From the NCBI RefSeq assembly GCF_000374565.1, contig NZ_KB894713.1:1-39871 (forward strand): a stretch of 39,871 nucleotides of DNA, written 5' to 3'. This document shows positions 29,952 to 35,157 of this stretch, piece by piece. The stretch is from Siminovitchia fordii DSM 16014 = CIP 108821. Its GTDB lineage: Bacteria; Bacillota; Bacilli; Bacillales; Bacillaceae_C. The first letter of the stretch is position 1. Every line of letters begins with the position of its first letter. A program made the translations under genes and the position numbers. The notes beneath the pieces were generated by a model that was given only the letters and a program-made list of their open reading frames with translations, was not told the DNA's origin and searched no databases.

Positions 29952-30519
29952 GATTAGTTACCGACTTCTAATGTTTCTCGCCTTTTCGGGCACCTAGGTC
30001 TTCGATTGGTGACCGGTTTTCGGGTTTACGCAACTTTTCGGGTACCTTTTACACTGATTAGTGACCGGGTTTCGAGATAACACAACTTTTCGGGTATCTT
30101 TTACTCCGATTAGTGACCGATTTTCGGATTAACGCAACTTTTCGGGCATCTTTTACTCCGATTAGTGACCGCTTTTCGGATTAACGCAACCTTTCGGGCA
30201 CCTTTTACACTGATTAGTGACCGGTTTTTGGGTTTACGTAACATTTCGGGCATCTTTACTCCGATTAGTGACCGGGTTTCGAGATAACGCAACTTTTCGG
30301 GCATCTTTTACTCCGATTAGTGACCGCTTTTCGGATTAACGTAACTTTTCGGGTACCTTTTACACCGATTAGTGACCGCTTTTCGAACTACCATAACTTT
30401 TCGGGAACCTTTTTCACCCATTGGTACCGTTTTTGAGATTCCAAAACGTTTCGGGCATCATTCCCTCGATCAGTGGCCGTTTCATCAAGTGACCCGCTGT
30501 CCAGTTTCGAGATCTAGCA
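29952..30519. repeat. 52-bp tandem repeat array 2 (about eleven units, between purF and purM)
   Basis: Core GATTAGTGACCG (or close variants) starts at 29952, 30004, 30056, 30108, 30160, 30212, 30263, 30315, 30367, 30419 and 30468. Most steps are exactly 52 bases; one is 51 and the last, in worn units, is 49. TTCGGG stands 33 bases into each unit, the same place as in array 1. Units 30004-30160 and 30212-30367 pair up one by one (period 207-208), so four units were duplicated together. The array lies inside the pur transcript, where B. subtilis has only a short gap. Confidence 0.95.
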
Positions 30520-30587: not shown

Positions 30588-31961
30588 CTATTCCATTTCC
30601 TTCTCATAAGGCAATGGGGTATCCGGATAGATTTCTGTTGGGTATTCACCCGTAAAGCAAGCCATACACTGACCGCAGTTTTTACCAAGTCCTTCTCTTC
30701 CAATGGCCTTCAGCATACCTTCGACACTCAGGAATGTGAGTGAGTCGGCCCCAATAATCTCACGGATTTCCTCCACACTATGACTGGAGGCGATCAGCTC
30801 TTCATGGGTAGATACGTCGATTCCATAAAAGCACGGATTTGTCATTGGCGGAGAACTGATGCAGACGTGAACTTCCGTTGCACCGGCTTCTTTTAGCATC
30901 CGTACAATCCGCCGGCTTGTAGTTCCACGTACGATTGAATCGTCGACCATGATGACACGTTTTCCTTCGACCACCTTTCGAACAGGGGATAGTTTCATTT
31001 TCACTCCCTGCTCGCGAAGCTCCTGAGTCGGTTTAATAAAAGTCCTTCCGACATATCTGTTTTTAATTAAACCAAGTTCGTATGGTATCCCTGTGGTTTC
31101 TGCATAACCAATAGCTGAGGAAATGCTTGAATCCGGGACCCCTGTTACAACGTCACCTTCGACATTGGCCTCAAGAGCGAGCTGCTTTCCAAGATTTTTT
31201 CTTGCCGTATGGATGTTGATTCCGCGTATATCACTGTCCGGTCTTGAAAAATAAACATATTCCATTGTACACATGGCGTGGGAACCTGAAAGAGAAAAGC
31301 GTTCTTCATGTAATCCTTCATCGTTGATGATGATCATTTCCCCAGGTTCAACATCTCGGATATACTCCGCCCCGATTAAATCGTATGCACATGTTTCTGA
31401 TGCGACACAATACGCATCTCCGACTTTTCCAATGGAGAGTGGCCGTAATCCGTTAGGATCTTGTGCGATGATTAGCTCATCTTCTGTCAAAACGATCAAG
31501 GCGTAAGAACCTTTCACCATTGAAAGTGCATTTTTCACCTTGTCTTTCAGTGCCAGATATCCGCTGCGTTTAATCAGATGCGCAAGTACTTCCGTGTCTG
31601 TATTTGTCTGAAAAATACTCCCCTGCATTTCCAATTGGTGTTTTAAATCATTCGCATTGATCAAATTTCCTGTATGTGAAAGAGCAAGACTTCCGCTTGA
31701 TGAATGGAAGAGAAGCGGCTGAATATTTTCAATGCCGCTCTTTCCAGTATATCTTACATGCCCGATTGCGCCGGTACCTTTAAGGCTGTCAAGCTTCTTT
31801 TCATCAAATACATCGTTGACGAGCCCATCTCCTTTTATCCCCTTCATTCGTTTTCCATCTGTTACAACAATCCCGGCGCCTTCCTGCCCTCTATGCTGTA
31901 GACTGTGCAGACCATAATATGTCATTCTTGCCGCATCGGGGTGACCCCATATTCCAAACAC
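30588..31961 (-). CDS. purF: Amidophosphoribosyltransferase with atypical glutaminase part
   Basis: 457 residues from a GTG with GAGG 8 bases upstream. PurF makes phosphoribosylamine from PRPP with ammonia taken from glutamine (step 1). The PRPP-transferase half is intact (RVIMVDDSIVRGTTSRRIV), as are the four Fe-S cysteines of the B. subtilis type (AMCTMEY, NPCFYG, NCGQCMAC). The Ntn glutaminase half is not normal. The Cys nucleophile codon (TGC, 31965-31967) lies two codons before the GTG, and no ATG, GTG or TTG exists between it and an in-frame stop at 31986-31988. The oxyanion motif HNGNL is HTGNL (Thr96), and the glutamine loop RYATAG.G is RYTKSG with two residues fewer. The GTG lies 20 bases after the purL stop. 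Confidence 0.93.
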   Translation of the reverse strand: MFGIWGHPDAARMTYYGLHSLQHRGQEGAGIVVTDGKRMKGIKGDGLVNDVFDEKKLDSLKGTGAIGHVRYTGKSGIENIQPLLFHSSSGSLALSHTGNLINANDLKHQLEMQGSIFQTNTDTEVLAHLIKRSGYLALKDKVKNALSMVKGSYALIVLTEDELIIAQDPNGLRPLSIGKVGDAYCVASETCAYDLIGAEYIRDVEPGEMIIINDEGLHEERFSLSGSHAMCTMEYVYFSRPDSDIRGINIHTARKNLGKQLALEANVEGDVVTGVPDSSISSAIGYAETTGIPYELGLIKNRYVGRTFIKPTQELREQGVKMKLSPVRKVVEGKRVIMVDDSIVRGTTSRRIVRMLKEAGATEVHVCISSPPMTNPCFYGIDVSTHEELIASSHSVEEIREIIGADSLTFLSVEGMLKAIGREGLGKNCGQCMACFTGEYPTEIYPDTPLPYEKEME

Positions 31962-31981
31962 ACTGCATACCTCATTTATGC

Positions 31982-34207
31982 TTATTTATTCAGCAGAGAC
32001 GGGATGGCTCCCTTCCAAGCCTCTTCCATCTTTCTGCTGTCGGATTTGATCACTAGCTCTTTATTTTCGTTAAGGATGACTAATTCTGCGCTGTCTGTAA
32101 CTTCACCAATCAACATTGCATCTTTTACGGTTTCTTCAAAAGCTGCCTGATTGTCTTTCTTGACCGAGATGATAAAACGCGATTGTGTTTCAGAGAATAA
32201 TGCTGTTGTTTTATCTCCGGCTAGGGTTACTTCCGCTCCAAGTCCATCTGTTCCAAACAGGCATTCAGCAAGAGCTACAGCCGCTCCGCCCTCCGAAATA
32301 TCGTGAGCAGAAGATACAAGACCTTCCCGTATTGCTGTAAGAATCTGCTTCTGTCTTTTAGCCTCCACAGCAAGATCAATTGCAGGAGCTTTTCCAAAAA
32401 TGTCGTCATGAACTAATTTCTGAAGTTCACTTCCGCCAAATTCAGGCTTCGTTTCCCCAACGATGTACACCAGGTCTCCAGCCTCTTTAAATGACTGTGT
32501 AGTTGCATGTGCAAGGTCCGGAATCAAGCCGACCATGCCAATGATAGGGGTTGGATAAATCGCCTTTCCGCCTTTTTCATTATAAAGAGAAACATTTCCC
32601 CCGATGACCGGGCTGTTAAGTGCCAGACATGCTTCACTGATTCCTTCTGCGGATTTTTCAATCTGCCAAAAAGTTTCCGGCTTGTCCGGGCTTCCGAAGT
32701 TTAAGCCGTCCGTAATTGCAAGCGGCTCTGCACCGGAACAAACGACGTTTCTTGCAGCTTCCGCTACTGCGATTTTTCCGCCTGTTTCCGGGTCAAGGTA
32801 AATGTAACGAGAGTTGCAATCCGTTGTTATTGCGATTCCTTTATTTGTTCCAGGTATTCTGACAACTGCTGCGTCTGAACCGGGAGTAACGACTGTATTG
32901 GCCCCCACTTGATGGTCAAATTGGCGGTAAACCCACTCTTTGCTGGCAACTGTCGGCTGTTGTAAAAGCTTAAGTAAAGTTTCCTGGTAATCAGTAACTT
33001 CCGGAACACCAACTTCCATTTCCTGATATTCCCGGAAATAGGCCGGAATTTCGGATTTTTTATGATAGACTGGAGCATCTTCCGCTAATGCATCTGCAGG
33101 CACTTCCGCCACAACCTGGCCTTTATGAAGAAGGCGAAGCATTTTATCGTCGGTTACATGGCCAACAGCTACAGCTTCCAAATCATATTTTGCGAACAGG
33201 TCGATGATTTCCTGTTCCCTTCCTTTTTTGATAACGATGAGCATCCTCTCTTGAGATTCGGACAGCATCATTTCATAAGCAGTCATATTCATTTCACGTT
33301 GAGGAATTAGGTCAAGATTCATTTCAACACCGTAGCCTGCCTTACTTGCCATTTCGGCAGAGGAACTGGTCAATCCGGCTGCTCCCATATCTTGGATTCC
33401 GATCAAAGCATCCGATTTTACAAGTTCCAAACAAGCATCCATTAACAGCTTCTCTGTAAAAGGGTCCCCTGCCTGTACCGCTGCGCGCTCTTCGTCTTCA
33501 TCCTCAGACAGTTCCGCCGAGGAAAAAGTAGCTCCGTGAATGCCATCCCGGCCTGTCGCGGCGCCAACATACATAACAGTGTTGCCTACACCTTTTGCTT
33601 GACCTTTCTGCATGTCTTCATGGTTAAGAAGACCCACAACCATTGCATTGACTAGAGGGTTGCTTTCATATGCCGGATCAAATTGAATCTCCCCGCCTAC
33701 TGTCGGAACACCAAGTGCATTTCCATAATCGGCGATTCCTGCTACTGCCTGCTCAAGCAAATAACGAACCCTTGGAGAATCCAATTCTCCGAATCTCAAA
33801 GAATTCATGGCCGCAATAGGACGGGCGCCCATTGAAAATACGTCACGGACAATACCGCCGACACCAGTAGCAGCACCTTCGTACGGCTCGACGGCTGAAG
33901 GTGAGTTATGGCTCTCAATTTTGAAAACAACTGCCTGGTTATCGCCAATGTCAACGATTCCAGCACCTTCTCCCGGACCTTGTAAAACTTGTTTTCCTTC
34001 TGTGGGGAACTTTTTCAGCACATGCTTTGAGCTCTTGTAGCTGCAGTGCTCAGACCACATGACGGAAAAAAGTCCGGTTTCCGTATAGTTCGGTGTTCTT
34101 CCGAGCATTTTTTCCGCAAGTTCGAACTCTTCGTCTGACAAGCCCATCTCTTGATAGATCTTTTGTTCTTTAATCTCGGACGGATTCGGCTCAAGCATTT
34201 GTGACAT
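31982..34207 (-). CDS. purL: FGAM synthase, large subunit
   Basis: 741 residues, the small bacterial PurL that works with PurS and PurQ: FGAR + ATP + ammonia to FGAM (step 4). Intact motifs: [67 protein letters not shown] and [16 protein letters not shown]. The ATG follows CTGGAGGG by 8 bases and overlaps the purQ end by 17 bases; a TTG eight codons earlier is ignored. PurL itself can use free ammonia in known systems, which matters given the PurQ defect. Confidence 0.96.
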
Positions 34208-34877
34208 GTGTTTCCCTCCAGTTTTGTACAATAGATTTGAACAATTTCACTCCATCAGTGCTGCCCAAAAGTTGATCTACAGCTCTTTCTGGGTGTGGCA
34301 TCAAGCCAAGGACATTTCCTTTTTCATTCGTAATGCCGGCAATGTCGGCCATACTGTCATTCGGATTTTCAGATGTATAGGTGAAGATGATTTGGTTATT
34401 TTCTTGCAGCTTTTTCAATTCTGATTGGCTGCAGTAAAAATTACCTTTTTTATGCGCTATAGGCAGTGAAATGATTTCTCCACTTTCATAAAGCGAAGTG
34501 AATGCCGTATCATTGTTTGCCACCTGAAGCTTTACTGGTTTGCATACAAATTTCAAACTTTCGTTCGTAAGCATCGTACCCGGAAGCAGCCCTGCTTCCT
34601 GAAGAATTTGAAATCCATTTCCAATACCAAGGATTGGCTTACCAGCTTCAGCCGCTTTTTGGATTCCTTTTACGACAGGCTGCCTTTTGGCAATGGCTCC
34701 CGGCCGGACAGCATCGCCGTAGGACGCACCTCCTGGAATCAGAACAGCATCATATCCTTCAAGAGTCTCAATGTCGTGTCCGACATATTCAGCTTTCTCT
34801 CCGGTAGTTTGCTTGAGGGCTGCGTCTAAATCAGCTTCGCACGTTGTGCCTGGGAAAACGACTATTGCGATTTTCAC
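34191..34877 (-). CDS. purQ: FGAM synthase, glutaminase subunit, lacking the catalytic Cys
   Basis: 228 residues, collinear with B. subtilis PurQ. PurQ is a class I amidotransferase that splits glutamine and passes ammonia to PurL. The nucleophile elbow, normally G-V-C-N-G-F-Q, reads GIGNGFQ: residue 86 is Gly (codon GGA; Cys would need two base changes, so a single read error cannot explain it). His195 and Glu197 of MPHPERA remain. Other family motifs have drifted: FPGTTCEAD for [22 protein letters not shown] for GGFSYGDYLRCGAIA, and AHKKGNFY for AHGEGNFY. It may persist as a structural partner of PurL. Confidence 0.93.
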
Positions 34878-35128
34878 TTTGCAGCCGCCTCCTCGATTTC
34901 AAAGCGGTAATCTTCAACTTCCGTATTTACAAGAAGGTTTTTGCACATATCATGGACTGCTTCTTCCACATTTTTGTTTGTTTGGTCAATGGTTAATTCG
35001 ATATACTTTCCAACACGGACATTTTCAACTTCAGGAAAATCGGATTTCTTCAGTTCCTTTGTTGCAGCCGCACCTTCAGGATCAATAACACTTTCTTTCA
35101 ATGTTACAAATACCTTCACTTTATACAT
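34874..35128 (-). CDS. purS: FGAM synthase, PurS subunit
   Basis: 84 residues from the second ATG, which has AAAGGAG 8 bases upstream; the first ATG (two codons earlier) is too close to it. PurS dimers bridge PurQ and PurL and help pass ammonia. The [21 protein letters not shown] opening and [11 protein letters not shown] centre match the family. It overlaps purQ by 4 bases. In B. subtilis purC would lie between purB and purS; here 23 bases separate the purB stop from the first purS ATG. Confidence 0.95.
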
Positions 35129-35157
35129 CTTCATTTCTCCTTTCGCTTGCGCGAGTT

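Follow-up and report, generated by a model that had tools for sequence, protein, structure and literature searches.

How does a bacterium make its purines when both of the glutaminases encoded in its purine (pur) operon appear to be catalytically dead? The question is raised by the pur operon of Siminovitchia fordii DSM 16014 = CIP 108821, a member of the Bacillaceae; the operon lies in a stretch of 39,871 nucleotides (contig NZ_KB894713.1 of assembly GCF_000374565.1; this whole stretch is called 'the window' here) and encodes altered forms of PurF and PurQ. Glutamine is the standard nitrogen donor in nucleotide synthesis, and a sequence-only reading of the operon had suggested that its purine pathway runs on ammonia. 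Synthesising comparisons with related genomes, we propose, at a probability that we would put at about 0.8, that Siminovitchia and its neighbours have moved stepwise from the amide nitrogen of glutamine to free ammonia, in the making of purines, carbamoyl phosphate and folate. The suggestion of ammonia-run purines thus gains support at the level of sequence; its frame of two purine enzymes has proved too narrow, as the change takes in two CarA paralogues, PabA and the glutamate synthase subunit GltB.

The source genome of the window comprises 4.51 Mb in 45 contigs (completeness 99.6%), and our family sample holds 34 genomes from seven genera, with six from Siminovitchia (g1) and sixteen from a neighbouring genus (g5); the named loci L005, L006, L008 and L007 were counted once, with genomes G001, G002, G003 and G004. 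The closest named relatives, with PurQ identities of 84-86%, are Siminovitchia fortis, Bacillus norwichensis, S. terrae and Bacillus sp. HF117_J1_D.

Altered glutaminase parts of PurQ and PurF

PurQ, the glutaminase subunit of phosphoribosylformylglycinamidine (FGAM) synthetase, remains a full-length match to its family, and its gene sits between purS and purL. Among solved PurQ structures the closest is 3d54 chain D, the Thermotoga maritima enzyme, with which the protein aligns over nearly its full length; the two differ at the nucleophile, which is Cys in that structure and Gly at residue 86 here (Table 1). As had been noted from the letters of the window, two further motifs have drifted: both the AHGEG and the GGFSYGDYLR of Bacillus relatives are altered, with the His and Glu of the catalytic triad retained (MPHPERA). 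Gly stands in place of the PurQ Cys in 6/6 Siminovitchia genomes.

PurF likewise matches its family over the full length (TIGR01134, 535.1 bits; cut-off 350) and aligns over nearly all of 1gph, the B. subtilis enzyme; the phosphoribosyl pyrophosphate (PRPP) half matches that structure, as do the C-terminal Cys residues, in agreement with the sequence-only reading. The glutaminase half does not, in that 1gph begins with Cys, has HNGN and carries a longer glutamine loop. The purF genes of B. spizizenii, Niallia and Fictibacillus begin before purL has ended and encode, ahead of Cys, a short propeptide whose last residues are LNEE. In the window and the four named relatives the ATG of this propeptide has become GTC and a stop codon lies inside it (aligned by eye, without gaps), and the first usual start of purF is a GTG placed after Cys-Ser or Cys-Gly. 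Between the stop and the Cys codon the window offers no ATG, GTG or TTG, two ATA codons being the sole possible odd starts; reading the DNA of the 6/6 Siminovitchia genomes gave the same absence of the three usual starts in this interval, the G005 genome too having a stop and no usual start ahead of Cys. The sequence GAGG at 31970-31973, 8 nt ahead of the GTG, looks like the Shine-Dalgarno sequence for this start. At the level of DNA, the claim that the start codon leaves out the catalytic Cys is borne out.

The glutamine loop and the oxyanion hole, whose residues have known roles in the glutaminase half, are also changed. Thr replaces the oxyanion-hole Asn (Asn101 in E. coli numbering) just as first read, and HTGNL is present in 5/6 Siminovitchia genomes, with G005 keeping Asn (AQNGNL). 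The loop is altered in 6/6; in the window it is indeed shortened, by two residues against 1gph, and its letters are RYTGKSG, not the RYTKSG originally given.

Table 1. Positions in the window of the genes, codons and motifs discussed (all on the minus strand)
Feature	Coordinates	Strand	Description
purS	34874..35134	-	TIGR00302 89.5 bits
purQ	34191..34877	-	FGAM synthetase glutaminase subunit (class I) that lacks its nucleophile; TIGR01737 280.8 bits, PRK03619 310.3 bits (cut-off 212)
PurQ residue 86	34620..34622	-	Gly replaces Cys nucleophile (GIGNGFQ); counterpart in 3d54 chain D is Cys
PurQ AHKKG	34443..34457	-	Stands for AHGEG of Bacillus relatives
purL	31982..34204	-	Full-length subunit of FGAM synthetase; start codon ATG at 34202-34204; PRK01213 1035 bits, 1-722 of 723
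Former purF propeptide/Cys1 region	31962..31988	-	Stop TAA 31986-31988, then ATA AGC ATA AAT GAG GTA, Cys codon TGC 31965-31967
purF	30588..31961	-	From GTG; glutaminase half apparently dead, PRPP half intact; TIGR01134 over full model
PurF glutamine loop RYTGKSG	31734..31754	-	2 residues shorter than RYATAGGGG (B. subtilis PurF 1gph)
PurF oxyanion-hole Thr codon (HTGNL)	31671..31673	-	Replaces Asn

Second copies of either gene were sought, as the sequence-only reading had advised, and none came to light in the source genome: a GATase_6 search returned three matches, namely PurF and two others, AsnB-like and GlmS-like, that keep the Cys after Met, so that no second purF was found; a PF13507 search of this 99.6% complete genome returned PurQ as its one match and no second purQ. 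AlphaFold2 models reached a mean predicted local distance difference test (pLDDT) score of 83.5 for PurF from its GTG, with the altered loop among the poor segments, and of 89.5 for PurQ, such that both glutaminase parts are predicted still to fold in silico.

We estimated the ratio of nonsynonymous to synonymous substitution rates (dN/dS) by the Nei-Gojobori (NG86) method, using five close genomes (10 pairs) as the Siminovitchia set. In PurF the ratio came to 0.023 in the dead half and 0.021 in the PRPP half; PurQ gave 0.118 and PurL 0.070, against 0.042-0.050 for the live PurF half and 0.032-0.076 for live PurQ in the outgroup, figures that come from small samples (1-15 pairs per group) with some dS values near or above 1. 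The dead parts of PurF and PurQ are under purifying selection, and the dead PurF half is constrained at least as tightly as the live one. Since this selection is strong, simple decay does not describe these halves, and the view that selection, not random decay, has shaped them stands.

Losses in other enzymes and the order in which they arose

The source genome yields 11 matches to PF00117, and among its amidotransferases (AsnB, GlmS, GuaA, PyrG, HisH, CarA and PabA being names that we assigned by eye) Gly takes the place of Cys in both CarA paralogues (GIGLGHQ, GFGLGHQ) and in PabA (GVGLGCH). The triad His has become Glu in the pyrimidine-type CarA and Asn in PabA, and is kept in the arginine-type CarA; Cys is kept in GuaA, PyrG, HisH, GlmS and AsnB. 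A glutaminase domain without its nucleophile is thus found in PurF, PurQ, CarA (twice) and PabA. Siminovitchia as a whole repeats this pattern, with Gly in the pyrimidine-type CarA, the arginine-type CarA and PabA (6/6 for each) and Cys in PyrG (6/6) and in every GuaA found (5/5; G003 gave no GuaA match). The pyrimidine-type CarA of the source genome matches 5dot and 6uel, whose chains are named 'Carbamoyl-phosphate synthase [ammonia], mitochondrial', and the frames of CarB and PabB are open as far as the examined loci extend. The source genome also encodes a stand-alone GuaA-like class I amidotransferase with an intact Cys (GICYGMQ; L086, C14:93457-94005), which starts about 2.7 kb before guaA; a stand-alone domain of this kind is near guaA in G001 as well.

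Across the family, PurQ could be read in 33 genomes (G008 being left out), and its nucleophile is lost in 21 of them, to Gly in 20 and to Ala in one (G007, of genus g3). The Gly form comprises 6/6 g1 and 14/16 g5 genomes; Cys was read in 12 (G006, G009, G010, G027 to G033, G015 and G024). The PurF loop has become (R or K)YGG in the 14 Gly-PurQ genomes of g5, five of which have Lys where the loop had Arg, and in G007 it reads RYSAAGG. The pyrimidine-type CarA carries Gly in 21/21 clade genomes read (six g1, 13 g5 with Gly-PurQ, G015 and G007; 21 of the 22 clade genomes, with G011 left out) and Cys in 11/11 outgroup genomes, its triad His being altered in 19 of the 21 and kept in G007 and G021. 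For G024 the arginine-type CarA alone was read, and has Cys. Among g5 genomes with Gly-PurQ, PabA keeps Cys in 13/14, and GuaA (6/6) and PyrG (3/3) keep it in the g5 genomes read. The exception is G021 (L219), whose PabA reads GISLSHQ, in which Ser stands for Cys, and has Gln at the place of the triad His; this loss is separate from the one in Siminovitchia.

A tree built from the PRPP half of PurF and part of PurL places G015 outside G007 (22 genomes, 95/97), and G007 in turn outside all others (21 genomes, 97/95); g1 and the 14 g5 genomes form one group (100/99), within which g5 need not form a single clade. The changes do, then, mark a clade, shared by Siminovitchia and its relatives, a point on which the sequence-only reading had called for alignment. 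On this tree the losses form a 'ladder', in which CarA changed first, since the tree places G015 and G007 outside, PurQ and the PurF loop next, and last the PurF start, the arginine-type CarA and, G021 excepted, PabA. As G007 has both an Ala-PurQ and an altered loop, the tree gives no order between these two.

Beyond the family, the Gly-PurQ pattern was matched in 7/381 genomes of the order, and six of the seven matches were not PurQ; the remaining one, G256 (1/381), has a Gly-PurQ and a PurF that keeps Cys1, and is probably an independent case. The search pattern detects Gly only, so that Ala or Ser forms would be missed. The PurF of this genome, which belongs to another family of the order, has AHNGS for AHNGN (L241, L254).

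The losses extend to glutamate synthase (glutamine oxoglutarate aminotransferase, GOGAT). A full-length GltB frame (about 1500 residues) is present in 15/34 family genomes, and is absent from 19/21 genomes with a dead PurQ versus 0/12 with a Cys-PurQ, counts that leave out G256, whose PurQ is also dead. GltB of the type seen in the outgroup was found in 0/22 clade genomes; that of G005, G025, G015 and G024 groups apart from the GltB of 10 outgroup genomes (100/100), and is clustered with gltD, two dap-like genes and a second glnA (we named gltD and the dap genes by eye). In the source genome, the site of this cluster, which lies between glnA and an AraC-like gene, holds only decayed dapF-like pieces and roughly 50 residues from the start of gltB (L312 7859-8891, C17), a remnant of a lost GOGAT cluster.

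A proposed move to free ammonia and the competing explanations

PurL and CarB accept ammonia, and we suggest that PurF, PurL, CarB and PabB would all take it from the cytosol, perhaps by way of the emptied glutaminase pocket. The exchange of Cys for Gly, which can be reached by one base change, would remove a side chain at the mouth of the tunnel, and the pocket may open to ammonia as a result. Dead halves would be retained because the folding, assembly or regulation of the complexes, or the guiding of ammonia, depends on them. Such a scheme supposes an ample pool of ammonia in the cell and its entry into glutamate by a route other than GOGAT, glutamate dehydrogenase being the likely one; carbamoyl phosphate made from ammonia would serve both pyrimidine and arginine synthesis. 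In its fullest form, which we favour with rather less assurance than the move to ammonia itself, the lineage would be an 'ammonia specialist' that has dismantled the glutamine synthetase-GOGAT couple, disabled its amidotransferase glutaminases in turn, and draws purines, pyrimidines, arginine and folate from NH3. If so, such species may depend on ammonia-rich habitats; one relative comes from the chicken gut, according to the abstract of PMC7256272, an origin in keeping with a habitat of that kind.

Parallels in other systems make this use of ammonia plausible. In E. coli, Cys1 mutants of PurF lose the use of glutamine and keep that of ammonia, according to passages of PMC3261824, and the same passages describe a crenarchaeal 'PurF-prime', a PurF-like protein without the N-terminal Cys, for which its authors proposed ammonia use; those crenarchaeal species also have a PurF with Cys, whereas no PurF besides the Cys-less one was found here. 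Carbamoyl phosphate synthetase (CPS) I of tetrapods, as portrayed in an extract of PMC7657897, retains a glutaminase domain without the catalytic Cys and uses free ammonia. CPS I is one enzyme of a urea-making pathway; the present case is bacterial and spans five enzymes in four pathways, with Gly for Cys in four class I enzymes and full-length GltB mostly missing. The extract also presents CPS III of Alcolapia fish, where a change in a glutamine-binding residue accompanies a shift to ammonia, which may be compared with the altered loop of g5 PurF beside a retained Cys1; there, unlike here, a single enzyme is concerned and its catalytic triad is retained. Since Cys1-mutant PurF and CPS I use ammonia, and since GltB has been lost, a move to free ammonia, made in steps and through a recurrent exchange of Cys for Gly in several paralogues, is the simplest account of the pattern. 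We found no earlier report of it, as judged on titles and the openings of abstracts in a search that mostly lay outside subscription journals.

Several observations weigh against this account, or narrow it. In 14/14 g5 genomes with Gly-PurQ, PurF keeps its propeptide and Cys1, and the PurF of G007 keeps its Cys; as Cys1 is retained, the PurF glutaminase of g5 and G007 may be not wholly dead. PurQ is slightly relaxed. The association between loss of GltB and loss of the PurQ nucleophile has a Fisher p of 2.6e-7, which overstates it because the independent events are few, an independent-pairs test on the tree finding one independent pair; two genomes, G005 and G025, combine a dead PurQ with a full-length GltB, albeit of another type. 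Stand-alone GltB-like proteins of about 470-590 residues occur in many genomes (three matches in the source genome), short frames that we did not count as GOGAT. Glutamine synthetase is present in 34/34 genomes, several glutamine-using enzymes remain intact, G005 holds a second PabA/TrpG-like gene with Cys (L113), and urease alpha gave no match above the cut-off in 6/6 Siminovitchia genomes. Urease as the source of ammonia was rejected on this result, and for want of any simple link to the trait.

Glutamine could remain the ultimate source if ammonia were made in trans by another glutaminase, for which the free-standing domain near guaA in the source genome and G001 would be a candidate. That domain is seen in 2/6 Siminovitchia genomes and the loss of GOGAT fits an ample supply of ammonia, such that we hold this, for the kinds of glutaminase that the searches covered, to be improbable; a loose glutaminase would in any case release free ammonia, and the synthases would be ammonia-run regardless. 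The strong conservation of the dead PurF half and the confident fold models would also suit glutamine 'sensors' that bind without hydrolysis and regulate the synthase, an idea to which we give marginally less credence still, as the PurF loop is altered in 20/20 g1 and dead-PurQ g5 genomes (with the Lys for its Arg in 5/14 of the g5), the AHGEG motif of PurQ is altered and the triad His of CarA is changed in 19/21.

That the pathway is being lost by random decay, with purines taken up instead, we consider very unlikely. PurQ does evolve somewhat faster than live PurQ, but a dN/dS of about 0.02 in both halves of PurF and 0.07 in PurL is not what decay would leave, neither purL nor purS nor the PRPP half of PurF is truncated, and the losses recur in enzymes of other pathways. 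Hardest of all to credit is an artefact, in which PurF would start at AUA with Cys1 kept and the Gly of PurQ would be an error: the Cys codon is still TGC in 6/6 Siminovitchia genomes, but PurQ has Gly or Ala in 21 family genomes, G005 lacks an AUA between stop and Cys, and the window and four named relatives have lost the propeptide start and carry a stop codon within the propeptide. Assembly error and chance were rejected, as the changes to PurQ, the loop and the start recur in other Siminovitchia genomes.

A stepwise move to free ammonia would make these genomes a graded natural series, running from one dead glutaminase up to five together with the loss of GOGAT, in which the role of the tunnel and the glutaminase half without glutamine cleavage, and a change of nitrogen 'currency', become testable. 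It would also supply natural candidates for an ammonia-run PurF, PurLQS and CarAB. For annotation there is a warning, in that family models score the predicted-dead PurF and PurQ far above their cut-offs, with the altered sites not flagged.

Operon context and minor observations

The pur genes lie on the minus strand of the window in the order purE, K, B, S, Q, L, F, M, N, H, D; family models confirmed purS, purQ, purL and purF, and purE, purK, purB, purM, purN, purH and purD are names that we gave by eye. There is no purC between purB and purS (35135-35157). The operon stretches of the remaining Siminovitchia genomes, G007 and G256 yielded no purC either, other places in those genomes not having been searched; G015, G024 and ten outgroup genomes do have the gene there, and the g5 stretches are too short to judge.

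In G008 purQ was not found in the roughly 10 kb before purF, where purL is broken off: its purL match (L305) begins only at residue 222, and the next 8 kb hold no match to purQ or purS. The operon of this genome has perhaps received a large insertion.

Between purF and purM, the window carries an array of about nine copies of a 52-bp unit (29982-30434), and in S. fortis about three copies of a 52-bp unit directly follow purF (L104 9027-9177).

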